From NCBI RefSeq assembly GCF_013369335.1, contig NZ_SZQJ01000002.1, forward strand, positions 1 through 64,000: a stretch of DNA of 64,000 bases, read 5' to 3'. This stretch comes from Vibrio sp. JPW-9-11-11 (GTDB lineage: Bacteria > Pseudomonadota > Gammaproteobacteria > Enterobacterales > Vibrionaceae). The notes beneath the pieces were generated by a model. The model had not been told where the DNA came from, made no database searches, and saw nothing but the letters and a program-made list of their open reading frames with translations. Position numbers and translations under genes: made by a program. Positions 23,614-54,814 of the stretch are shown here, piece by piece (positions within the stretch are counted from its first letter, which is position 1; each line of letters starts with the position of its first letter).

Positions 23614-23653
23614 TGACTGCATCACTCTCGGCATTGGCTTAGAGAGTTGGTAC

Positions 23654-23697
23654 AAAATGCACAGAGCGTCACACGTATGATGCACTGTGCATTTTTT
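23654..23697 (+). terminator. Intrinsic terminator of secB
   Basis: An 11-bp stem AAAATGCACAG / CTGTGCATTTT with a 20-base loop continues into a T run, 40 bases after the secB stop. Confidence 0.8.
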
Positions 23698-23796
23698 ATT
23701 TGTATTTATATCACTGGGCGTTTGTTGCTACTCTTTAGCTCACAGAGCGAGAGACTATCCACAAAATTCTAGTCTTGATCAGAACCAGGCGGAACA

Positions 23797-30086: not shown

Positions 30087-30331
30087 GACGTTAACTACTT
30101 ATGAAGGTTTGGTTAATAGAATTATTAACACCTTTGCATTTGTGGACAATATTTATTCGCTAAAAGTCTGAACTGTATCGGGTTTTATTAGCGATATTGC
30201 ATATTGATATCAGCCAAAGCCAACAAATGCCCATTTCTGCTACGCCGTTTATGGATATTTGCTCACTTTGGCTGGTACTTGGTCGCTAACTGCAAGAGCA
30301 CCAATTTACTTACTGGCGCTGTTTGAATTGC

Positions 30332-50805: not shown

Positions 50806-52020
50806 ATGACTGTAGAAAATAAAGTAGAACGCGGTTTGTTTGATGAGGTGATGGTGCCTTGTTATAACCCAATGGAAATGATCCCAGTAAAAGGCGAGGG
50901 CTCTCGCGTATGGGACCAGCAAGGCAATGAATATATCGATTTTGCTGGTGGTATCGCCGTGAGCTGTCTAGGTCATTGTCACCCAGCGATGGTCAATGCA
51001 TTGACTGAACAAGGGCAAAAGCTTTGGCACCTTAGTAACGTCATGACCAACGAGCCCGCTCTTCGCTTGGCGAAAAAACTCACCGAAGTGAGCTTTGCTG
51101 AAAAAGTCTTCTTTGCTAACTCAGGTGCAGAAGCGAACGAAGCCGCACTTAAGCTTGCTCGTCGTTACGCGGCCGATAAATTTGGCCCAGAAAAGTCAGA
51201 AATCATCGCCTTCACTCAAGGCTTCCACGGCCGTACATTCTTTACCGTCACGGTCGGTGGGCAAGCGGCATATTCAGATGGCTTTGGTCCTAAACCAGGC
51301 GATGTCACTCACTTGCCTTACAACGATGTGGATGCGTTGCGAGAGCACATCTCAGACCGTACTTGTGCAATTATGATGGAACCTTTGCAAGGCGAAGGCG
51401 GCATCATTTCACCAACCGACGAGTTTGTTCAAACCGTACGCGAGCTGTGTGACAAGCACAATGCACTGCTGATCTTTGATGAAGTTCAAACCGGTAATGG
51501 CCGTACAGGTAATTTCTATGCTTACCAAGGTCTCGGTGTCACGCCAGATATCTTAAGTACCGCAAAATCACTCGGTGGTGGTATTCCAATCGGTGCGATG
51601 CTAACCACGACTGAGCTCGCGCAGCACATGAAAGTCGGCACTCACGGCTCAACTTATGGCGGTAACCCACTGGCCTGTGCAGTAGCAGAAGCGGTGGTTG
51701 ATGTCGTGAGCCAACCTGAAACGCTTGCCGGTGTGGCGAAGCGCGAAGCGCTATTCCGTGAGGGGTTAACTAAGCTTAACGACAAATACCACATCTTTGC
51801 CGAAATTCGCGGTAAAGGCCTATTGCTTGGTGCCGCAATGAACGAAGCGTGGCAGGGCCGTGCTCGTGACGTACTTGTAGCGGCGGGTAAACAAGGTTTG
51901 ATGGTGTTGGTGGCAGGGGCAAACGTGGTGCGTTTTACTCCGTCACTGGTTATCACTGAAGAAGAAATTCAACAAGGACTCGATCGCCTAGATAAAGCAC
52001 TAGCGACATTAGTTAAATAA
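50806..52020 (+). CDS. argD: Acetylornithine / succinylornithine aminotransferase
   Basis: This PLP enzyme transfers the amino group of acetylornithine in arginine synthesis, or of succinylornithine in arginine breakdown. The same protein often does both. The 404-residue class III aminotransferase has [31 protein letters not shown] and the PLP lysine in [21 protein letters not shown] precedes the ATG. It is first in argD-astA-astD, so a catabolic (AstC) role is likely, and it may be the only argD of this chromosome. A large stem-loop follows before astA. Confidence 0.94.
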
Positions 52021-52062
52021 TAATTCAACAAACCGGAGGGCTGTTTTGTCATAGCTCTCCCA

Positions 52063-52135
52063 ATACCAGTGCTACTGGTCCTCTATTCGGGTTATTGCGT
52101 AGCAACAACGAATAGAGGACTGGTAGCATTGGTAT
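52063..52135 (+). repeat. 73-base intercistronic stem-loop between argD and astA
   Basis: Bases 52063-52089 pair with 52109-52135 along all 27 positions: 24 Watson-Crick pairs and three G-U pairs (69-129, 76-122 and 77-121 in the last digits). A 19-base loop contains a further TTGC-GTA-GCAA mini-stem. The structure is fully paired only in the argD-astA sense RNA and ends eight bases before the astA AGGAGGG site. Possible roles are mRNA processing, decay protection of argD or translational control of astA. A repeated palindromic element is the main alternative. Confidence 0.85.
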
Positions 52136-52158
52136 CCCGCATCAGGAGGGAAGTATCG

Positions 52159-53178
52159 ATGCTGGTTGTTCGCCCTATCGCAATGTCGGATTACGACGCG
52201 CTGCATACCTGCGCAGTGGAGTCGGGTCACGGATTCACATCTCTACCGGTTAACGAAGAACTGTTAACCAATCGCATTACCCATTCAGAGTACAGCTTTG
52301 CTAAACCCAAAGTGACCGAACCCGGTGACGAAGGTTATTTGATGGTCGGTTTTGACCATGAAACCGGCGAAGTGGCAGGCTGTACGGGTATTGAAGCGTC
52401 AATCGGGTGGGATGTGCCTTTTTACTCCTACCATATTAGTACCGTGGTTCATTCATCACGCAAACTGGGCGTTAATAATACGGTTAAACTTCTGACTTTT
52501 GGTAACAACTACACCGGTTGTAGTGAGATTTGTACTCTGTTTCTACGTCCGAGTTTCCGTCAAGGATTGAATGGACGCTTGATGTCGAAATGTCGATTTT
52601 TGATGATGGCCGAGCACCCGCACCGTTTCTCGAAAACCATTTTTGCTGAAATGCGCGGTGTTTCAGATGACGACGGCAACTCGCCGTTTTGGCAGTGGCT
52701 GCAAGAACACTTTTTCTCGATTGACTTCACCATGGCCGATTATCTGACTGGTATTGGGGCTAAAGGCTTTATCGCAGATCTGATGCCAAAACTGCCGATT
52801 TATATCAACTTATTGAGCAAAGAAGCACAAGAAGTGATCGGTAAAGTGCACGAAAACACTAAGCCCGCACTGAGACTACTAGAAAAAGAGGGCTTTACTT
52901 GCCGCAACTACGTCGACATTTTTGATGCAGGCCCGACGGTTGAATGTGATCTTCGCAATATTGAGTCGGTACGCCACTCAATTCGCGCCAAGGTGACGGT
53001 TGCCGAACACTCAAGCTCGCAAGATTTCCTGATTGCGAATACCTCATTTGAACACTTCCGCGCAACCGCAGCGAAAGCGGCGTACGACAAAGAAACGGAC
53101 TCTGTGATCCTCTCACCAACGGTCGCTGAAGCGCTGCAGGTGAAAGAGGGTGAGTTTGTGCGTATGTTGCCTCAGTAA
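52159..53178 (+). CDS. astA: Arginine N-succinyltransferase
   Basis: AstA transfers succinyl from succinyl-CoA to arginine, the first step of the AST pathway, which breaks arginine down to glutamate and succinate. I start at ATG 52159 (MLVVRPIAMSDYDALHTCAV), with AGGAGGG upstream, giving 339 residues, close to the E. coli length (344). The open frame runs upstream through the stem-loop and is not used. LFLRPSFRQGLNGRLMSKCR and FAEMRGVSDDDGNSPFW are AstA family features. It is followed by astD after 16 bases. Confidence 0.95.
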   Translation: MLVVRPIAMSDYDALHTCAVESGHGFTSLPVNEELLTNRITHSEYSFAKPKVTEPGDEGYLMVGFDHETGEVAGCTGIEASIGWDVPFYSYHISTVVHSSRKLGVNNTVKLLTFGNNYTGCSEICTLFLRPSFRQGLNGRLMSKCRFLMMAEHPHRFSKTIFAEMRGVSDDDGNSPFWQWLQEHFFSIDFTMADYLTGIGAKGFIADLMPKLPIYINLLSKEAQEVIGKVHENTKPALRLLEKEGFTCRNYVDIFDAGPTVECDLRNIESVRHSIRAKVTVAEHSSSQDFLIANTSFEHFRATAAKAAYDKETDSVILSPTVAEALQVKEGEFVRMLPQ

Positions 53179-53194
53179 ATAAAGGATATTAGTC

Positions 53195-54652
53195 ATGACA
53201 CATTGGATTGCAGGAGAGTGGCTCGCAGGAGAAGGCGAGCCGATGGACTCGACGAGCCCATACAACAACGAGGTGATTTGGCAAGGCGTGAGTGCAACGC
53301 CAGATCAAGTGGAACAAGCTGTAACGGCGGCACGCCACGCCTTCGTCGGTTGGAAAAAACTCAGCTTTGCCGAACGTGAAGCCGTGGTGCTGGCATTTGC
53401 CGAACAGGTCAAACAGCACAGTGAGCAAATAGCTGAAATCATTGCTAAAGAAACCGGTAAGCCGATTTGGGAAACGCGCACTGAGGCCGCGGCGATGGCG
53501 GGCAAGATTGCGATTTCTATTCGTGCCTATCATCAACGTACCGGTGAGACACAACGCGAAGCGGCGGGCAATCAGATTGTATTGCGCCATCGACCGCTGG
53601 GTGTGATGGCGGTATTTGGCCCGTATAACTTCCCGGGGCACTTGCCAAATGGTCATATCGTGCCTGCGCTGCTCGCCGGTAACACTGTGGTATTCAAACC
53701 TTCAGAGCAAACCCCGCTAACGGGTGAGTTTGCGATGAAGTTGTGGGAAAAAGCGGGCTTGCCAAAAGGCGTGATCAACTTGGTGCAAGGCGCTAAAGAA
53801 ACCGGCATCGCCCTAGCTGAGTCTAAAGGTATTGATGGTGTGCTATTCACGGGCAGCGCCAACACAGGTCATATTCTTCACCGTCAGTTTGCAGGACAAC
53901 CAGGCAAAATGCTCGCTCTAGAAATGGGCGGCAACAACCCTATGGTGATTTCTGATCACTATGGTGATGTCGATGCGACGGTTTATACCATTATTCAGTC
54001 GGCCTTTATCAGTGCGGGGCAACGCTGTACTTGTGCGCGTCGCCTGTATGTGCCTATCGGTGAAAAAGGTGACCTGTTGGTCAACAAATTGGTTGAAGCG
54101 ACCAATAAGATTCGTGTCGACCAGCCATTTGCCGAGCCAGCTCCGTTTATGGGCCCACAGATCTCGAAAGCCGCCGCCGACTTTATTTTGGCAGCGCAAG
54201 CAAACTTGCAACAGCTTGGTGGTAACAGCCTAGTTGAAGCGAAAGCGGGTGAAGCCGCATTCGTCACGCCGGGCATCATTGATGTCACCGCGATTGAAGC
54301 GCTACCAGACGAAGAATACTTTGGCCCACTATTGCAAGTGGTTCGCTACCAAGGTTTGGAGCAAGCCGTTGAACTGGCCAACGACACGCGGTTTGGCTTG
54401 TCGGCGGGCTTAGTTTCAACCGATGACAGCGAGTGGGAGTACTTTGTCGACCACATTCGCGCAGGCATCGTCAATCGCAACCGCCAGTTAACCGGAGCCA
54501 GTGGTGATGCGCCATTTGGTGGGCCTGGGGCGTCGGGCAATTTACGTCCGAGCGCGTTTTACGCCGCCGATTATTGTGCTTACCCAATGGCCTCAATGGA
54601 AGGCGAAGCCACTGAGCTACCCGCTAGCTTGAGCCCGGGTGTTGAACTCTAA
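53195..54652 (+). CDS. astD: N-succinylglutamate 5-semialdehyde dehydrogenase
   Basis: AstD oxidises succinylglutamate semialdehyde to succinylglutamate with NAD, the fourth step of the AST pathway. The 485-residue aldehyde dehydrogenase has the catalytic cysteine in [11 protein letters not shown], the conserved glutamate in [10 protein letters not shown], and [20 protein letters not shown], typical of AstD. AAGGA precedes the ATG. No astB or astE follows, so the rest of the pathway is encoded elsewhere. A terminator follows. Confidence 0.95.
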
Positions 54653-54716
54653 AAAAATAATAGAATAAGTTCCCTTTTTTGCCCCCGAGCTGGGGGCATA
54701 GCAACGTCACAGGCTG

Positions 54717-54766
54717 AAGGCTATCGGATTGACTTTTCTGGACACGTCGGTCCGGTAGCCTTTTTT
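54717..54766 (+). terminator. Intrinsic terminator of argD-astAD
   Basis: AAGGCTATCGGA (54717-54728) pairs with TCCGGTAGCCTT (54751-54762), with one wobble, followed by T. A second GC-rich hairpin (GCCCCC / GGGGGC, 54681-54697) lies just upstream. Confidence 0.8.
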
Positions 54767-54814
54767 ATAACTCAAACAACTATATAACGTAAACAACCCC
54801 AACAAGGAGGCGGT

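Follow-up and report, generated by a model that had tools for sequence, protein, structure and literature searches.

A repeat-derived predicted RNA hairpin in the argD-astA spacer of Vibrio sp. JPW-9-11-11

The window, the whole stretch of 64,000 nucleotides from Vibrio sp. JPW-9-11-11 that was analysed here, carries argD, astA and astD in succession on the forward strand. The spacer between argD and astA contains two hairpins in the predicted fold, the second of which has a stem of 27 pairs and is the subject of this report. The features of the locus are as follows.

50806..52020, + strand: argD/astC-type acetylornithine/succinylornithine aminotransferase (NF003468, TIGR03246 and TIGR00707 above cut-off)
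52035..52060, + strand: hairpin 1, a 10-pair stem in the fold (52035-52044 with 52051-52060), 14 nt past the argD stop and with no U-tract
52063-52089, + strand: left arm of the 27-pair stem, starting with the repeat's terminal ATACCA
52090..52108, + strand: loop region between the arms, 19 nt
52109-52135, + strand: right arm of the 27-pair stem, ending in TGGTAT
52144..52149, + strand: Shine-Dalgarno (SD) sequence of astA, AGGAGG, outside the stem
52159..53178, + strand: astA, arginine N-succinyltransferase (TIGR03244, 447.7 bits against a cut-off of 391; ATG at 52159)
53195..54652, + strand: astD, succinylglutamate-semialdehyde dehydrogenase (TIGR03240)

The argD product is probably bifunctional, as it passes the NCBIfam cut-offs of both TIGR00707 (argD) and TIGR03246 (arg_catab_astC). 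The first-pass annotation, made from the DNA letters alone, suggested that the stem could separate a biosynthetic ArgD from a catabolic AstA, a division that is too sharp for an aminotransferase scoring above the AstC model cut-off. A 2016 regulon study describes astAD as part of the conserved ArgR core of gammaproteobacteria and argD as one of the taxon-specific members (PMC5343134), so that the unit joins both directions of arginine metabolism. A GTG-started frame from 52069 passes through the stem and continues in frame into AstA (52069-53178, 369 aa); this in-frame GTG may lead annotation to report a longer AstA. Such an extension is unlikely to be conserved, however, since the open frames around astA vary from 339 to 384 aa between genomes among the full-length matches listed. 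In the other junctions shown, a common form of the SD is GCATC[AT]GGAGGG.

All 27 positions of the stem pair, as had been proposed, and the non-Watson-Crick pairs are exactly 52069-52129, 52076-52122 and 52077-52121, all of them G-U on the sense strand. The distance from the stem to the ribosome binding site (RBS) of astA was likewise given correctly, as eight bases (52136-52143) precede AGGAGG at 52144. The view that the stem is fully paired only in sense RNA holds in that the three G-U positions are unpaired in the antisense, but the contrast is modest: the antisense fold (−41.5 kcal/mol, z −10.7) is nearly as strong as the sense fold (−46.9 kcal/mol, z −11.7; as good in 0/200 shuffles). The three wobbles are also a weak argument by themselves, since by our arithmetic three transitions in one orientation have a probability of 1/4 if either strand counts. 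The length of the stem is exceptional. In a set of 89 same-strand spacers 50-310 nt long, 17 of them from the window and 72 from 400 kb of contig C5 (genes taken from a simple script), no uninterrupted helix is longer than that of the argD-astA spacer, with 27 pairs; the next, at 18, is in the spacer after astD. The stem matches no Rfam 15 family at gathering score. Other long inverted repeats in the window lie at 30208-30277 (27 nt, 78%) and 23651-23698 (24 nt, 83%).

A BLASTN search with the 73 bases of the stem, a check for other genomic copies put forward in the first-pass annotation, returns from the genome only the stem itself and a mirror match, as the core that unites the family to which it belongs has been deleted; a long-form query does find family copies. 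The argument that a single-copy sequence is not a repeat was therefore rejected, the link to the family being shown by searches with the long-form core and by the match to Vibrio coralliilyticus described below. The family consists of palindromic, MITE-like repeats of ~163 bp with ATACCA/TGGTAT ends. A dispersed full copy used as query matched in 85/159 Vibrionaceae genomes, from 5/13 genera, with many matches spanning all 163 bases; usually only 5 candidates were scored per genome, so copy numbers from this survey are lower bounds. The V. tubiashii copy as query gave matches in 11/12 genomes, including 22 in G161, 18 in G310, 11 in V. tubiashii T33 (G062) and 3 in the window's own genome, counts that include the junction copy where one is present, although the three in the own genome lie elsewhere than the junction. 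That genome thus holds at least three other family copies. The three that span the whole of the dispersed-copy query are all outside the window.

C1:170694-170856: dispersed family copy
C5:617665-617842: dispersed family copy
C36:40675-40834: dispersed family copy

In 15 of the 22 dispersed copies examined, ATACCA...TTGGTAT occurs at the expected spacing, the rest having decayed ends. Full copies, mostly 163 bp, fall below the limit of about 500 bp for MITEs and have terminal inverted repeats, and the family is dispersed in many copies with different flanks (as many as 22 matches in one relative, and three further copies in the genome of the window). The term MITE-like is used because target duplication could not be shown: a search of 16 relatives with the sequences on either side of one own copy gave no clean empty site or target duplication. 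The nearest to an empty site is in G310, where a 49-bp core-less version lies next to the counterpart of the own C1 site, and a pattern search found core-less 48-bp versions in 2/192 genomes. Three loci carrying dispersed copies (L069, L072 and L077) match no Rfam family at gathering score, and searches of mainly open-access literature gave no description of the family.

The same argD-astA spacer carries a long form of 157-180 bp in V. coralliilyticus (G147), V. nereis (G180), V. hepatarius HF70 (G081), V. tubiashii T33, Vibrio sp. RE88 (G186), V. ouci (L178) and two further genomes (G114 and G132). When the first 40 and last 33 bases of the window element are aligned to the two ends of these eight long forms, 50-60 of the 73 positions agree, compared with a maximum of 36 in 2000 shuffles of each. 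A direct BLAST search links the right-arm segment 52101-52135 to the end of the V. coralliilyticus form (91%, E 3.2e-7). Relative to the 157-180-bp orthologues, a scar of core deletion lies near 52102/52103, and V. salilacus has the same scar. Short forms occur in V. salilacus (73 bp, 61/73 identical to the window), V. pacinii (61 bp, 47/73) and Vibrio sp. RE86 (47 bp, 41/73). The window stem is a diverged copy of the repeat family from which the core has been lost, an origin that the first-pass annotation had missed; it had named membership of a multicopy repeat found in many unrelated intergenic regions as telling against its reading, and this is in part what was found, the stem being a core-deleted remnant of such a repeat. 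Agreement between a dispersed family copy and the window arms is limited to 40/73 positions (shuffle maximum 31). With up to three mismatches, the junction-arm pattern occurs in 14/196 genomes, ten of which have it at the argD-astA junction and four as single arms. In two of these four, G109 and G177, dispersed copies have arms nearer to the junction type, so the divergence of the arms may partly reflect subfamily variation and not change in place.

A tree of argD and astA (78 rows) groups the window with V. salilacus and V. pacinii at 99/99 support, and the junction type of the window is found in 10/21 rows of a clade with 100/99 support, the remaining rows having other types. The simplest reading of this history is one old insertion, a core deletion in the line of the window species, V. 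salilacus and V. pacinii, another in RE86, and replacement in several lines. V. fluminensis (G188, L117), which lies outside the supported clade, has, immediately past the argD stop, a standard full family copy and then a different hairpin. BLAST groups this junction with the window type on account of the shared repeat family, but its place and sequence suggest a second, independent entry of the repeat into the spacer.

Hairpins derived from repeats are familiar in such positions. REP/BIME hairpins between cistrons, as in malE-malF, protect the upstream mRNA segment from 3′-to-5′ decay, and REPs are units of 20-40 bp. The window stem is likewise an intercistronic repeat hairpin but differs in being the arm pair of a longer element with ATACCA ends. 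The present family is not known to share sequence with Correia/NEMIS or ERIC. It is like these elements (Correia/NEMIS of Neisseria, ERIC of enterobacteria and Vibrio) in comprising short intergenic palindromes, present in many copies and bounded by terminal inverted repeats, that would fold once transcribed, and unlike them in its length of about 163 bp and in the loss of the core from the window copy. A 2024 review reports that RNase III cuts the Correia-bearing mtrCDE mRNA and that ERIC acts via an RNase E site in Yersinia (PMC10969869). A 2008 survey, whose relevant text names V. cholerae as the only Vibrio, gives for it an ERIC family with a model length of 103 and a Vic-1 family of 14 members with a model length of 184, and states that the V. 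cholerae ERIC copies are not predicted to fold (PMC2267715); ERIC-related repeats in V. cholerae also receive mention elsewhere (PMC2759123). Like ERIC and Vic-1 as they are portrayed there, the present family is a repeated, stem-loop-containing sequence family of a Vibrio genome. By analogy with these systems, the window stem would be a repeat-derived intercistronic RNA hairpin, a kind already known.

Whether the pairing of the remnant has been maintained was assessed in an alignment of the outer 20 pairs of the orthologous elements, with loops left out, that comprised 12 genomes or loci and 7 distinct rows. Pairing is found in 95% of cells. Six of the 20 pairs have changed on both sides, which contradicts the prospect, raised in the first-pass annotation, that relatives lack compensatory changes; the number itself is not striking, being reached by 16/500 shuffles. 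The covariation score of the arms was 0.329 versus 0.183 when shuffled (0/500 as high), with slid partners reaching at most 0.104. Distinct non-Watson-Crick states comprise 9 G-U, 2 A-C (both in G132) and 4 others, and the resulting 9:2 bias towards the sense strand is small (one-sided binomial about 0.03 by our arithmetic), its force as a wobble argument being weakened by the G-U that the outer stem of the family itself carries on this strand. A count of G-U over the conserved helices of other junction groups leans towards G-U by construction and was not used. Hairpin 1 provides a second instance of covariation (0.850 versus 0.357, 0/500 shuffles; 5 distinct rows and 8 outer pairs), with changes on both sides in 5/8 outer pairs (12/500 shuffles reach 5); its number of pair types is not striking, as 217/500 shuffles reach it. 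In this alignment RE88 and G114 share the eight pairs of V. coralliilyticus, V. tubiashii T33 and G132 were omitted because of bulges in the stem, and V. ouci was not included. These data support selection on RNA pairing, as judged from the aligned sequences. The same proposal in the first-pass annotation thus gains from the covariation of the arms, the 9:2 distribution and hairpin 1, while the three wobbles on which it was built carry little weight alone. Overall, the earlier interpretation is partly supported.

An alternative explanation is that the stem is a neutral remnant, an old repeat copy minus its core with no function in the mRNA, in which complementarity derives from template-switch repair and slippage favoured deletion of the core. 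The multicopy nature of the family fits this proposal, as does the occurrence of core-less 48-49-bp versions elsewhere (G310; 2/192 genomes), and positions 16-27 of the window arms are identical when read from both arms, as one template-switch repair event could give. It accounts less readily for double changes that include transversion pairs in different lineages (pair 16, G-C to U-A; pair 19, A-U to C-G), for the 9:2 sense bias, for the covariation of the separate hairpin 1 and for pairing that outlived the loss of the copy's own core. We consider neutrality unlikely, though far from negligible.

The favoured reading, in which the remnant has been retained for its structure, is set in a wider frame by the argD-astA spacer of relatives. 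In the genus search, astA was found in 193/196 genomes. The junction set drew on 122 loci, reduced to 121 as G001, at a contig edge, gave none, and on 79 of 81 rows (80 named loci and the window), yielding 132 distinct junctions. BLAST placed these in 42, 37, 32 or 15 groups at E cut-offs of 1e-4, 0.01, 0.1 and 1, respectively, and the number of independent hairpins is uncertain to the extent that it depends on this cut-off. As controls we used 88 spacers of the window's own genome, based on rough gene calls (one, 53178-53242, rests on a late astD start), whereas the junctions come from many species. The junctions are more structured than these controls. A median z below −2 was observed in 34/42 junction groups versus 51/88 control spacers (19/43 controls without T5), and the median of the longest helix was 11 in junction groups versus 9 in controls (p 5e-5) and 8 in controls without T5, a contrast that persists at 32 groups (p 6e-4). 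Energy per base was −0.324 in junction groups versus −0.241 in the 88 controls (p 1e-14), a contrast inflated by differences in median length (99 versus 144 nt) and G+C (0.46 versus 0.41); the shuffle z, which corrects for both, differs less, with medians of −2.75 for the junctions versus −2.43 for the 88 controls (p 0.008) and −1.68 for the 43 without T5 (p 1e-4). Nearly all junctions (130/132) have a helix of 6 or more pairs ahead of the SD, but this measure does not discriminate, as 84/88 control spacers also reach that length. In other genera of the Vibrionaceae, our own reading of the folds identified clear hairpins in 18/20 junctions, and the two junctions with no strong hairpin (30- and 43-nt spacers) indicate that the hairpin is typical of the argD-astA spacer and not obligatory. 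Most relatives examined therefore have hairpins in this spacer, often differing in sequence. Hairpins are present in the control spacers too, and stem-loops are described as concentrated at the 3′ ends of genes generally in a study of 40 bacterial genomes (PMC1590033).

These comparisons raise the possibility, which we hold only tentatively and think rather doubtful, that the boundary favours a strong hairpin but not a particular one, such that unrelated hairpins and repeat copies (apparently from two entries, one in the window clade and one in V. fluminensis) have replaced each other. Were this so, a functional RNA structure would have been kept through the turnover of its sequence.

The position of the hairpins bears on two further explanations. 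The stem could control translation of astA by holding open the sequence immediately 5′ of the RBS or by aiding restart after argD. Consistent with such a role, the SD is left free in the window, and in 29/36 measurable groups (of 37) the last hairpin has its 3′ end at a distance of 4-18.5 nt from the SD core; in the other 7/36, however, the distance is 26-65.5 nt, and the whole-spacer fold of the window leaves the SD unsequestered by the stem. Translational control is, on balance, improbable. A transcriptional attenuator or terminator between argD and astA is less probable again, to the point of being barely credible. T-rich tails, with at least 5 T in the 8 bases after the last hairpin, do occur in some other species but only in 9/130 junctions, while the stem in the window is directly followed on its 3′ side by CCCGCATC. 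The junctions are accordingly structured for the most part without a U-tract. An intrinsic terminator (G+C-rich stem followed by a U-tract) was sought and rejected, with 0 sites in 51950-52250, and neither a promoter-like nor a terminator-like site was found in that interval.

We favour, with reasonable though far from complete confidence, a model in which the repeat remnant has been retained as a structural boundary in the argD-astA mRNA, acting in transcripts much as ERIC and Correia elements do. In this model a ~163-bp copy of the repeat would have lain in the spacer in the common ancestor of the clade of V. coralliilyticus, V. nereis, V. tubiashii, V. salilacus and the window species. The line that gave rise to the window species, V. 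salilacus and V. pacinii then lost the core, and the remaining arms form an almost perfect RNA hairpin in the fold, whose pairing would have been preserved in the transcript of argD, astA and astD. This remnant and hairpin 1 would most likely act as a structural boundary, at which 3′-to-5′ decay into argD would be blocked after a cut in the spacer. In addition, or instead, the stem may offer a duplex to RNase III, with whose substrates a length of 27 pairs is compatible, or nearby single strands to RNase E. The segments of argD and of astA-astD could then differ in stability while the RBS of astA stays free. The repeat origin, the loss of the core, the covariation of the arms, the absence of a terminator-like site and the hairpins in this spacer of most relatives examined are results of the computation; that the spacer is transcribed and processed, and that expression is affected, is inferred.

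Viewed in this way, an isolated hairpin becomes a traceable history of repeat insertion, core loss and retention of the arms alone with compensatory changes. The spacer also provides, at one and the same gene boundary, a natural set of hairpins that fall into 32-42 sequence groups at the stricter cut-offs, which lets one ask whether structure, whatever its sequence, sets the stability of an mRNA segment, and this in an operon that serves both arginine synthesis and breakdown.

Two other structured elements were observed in the window. On the reverse strand, 9406-9457 matches the L31-Gammaproteobacteria ribosomal protein leader (Rfam RF03157, 60.2 bits). The spacer after astD (54653-54814) has an 18-pair helix followed by TTTTTT and is terminator-like; its sequence is similar in several relatives, in contrast to the fast-changing argD-astA spacer.
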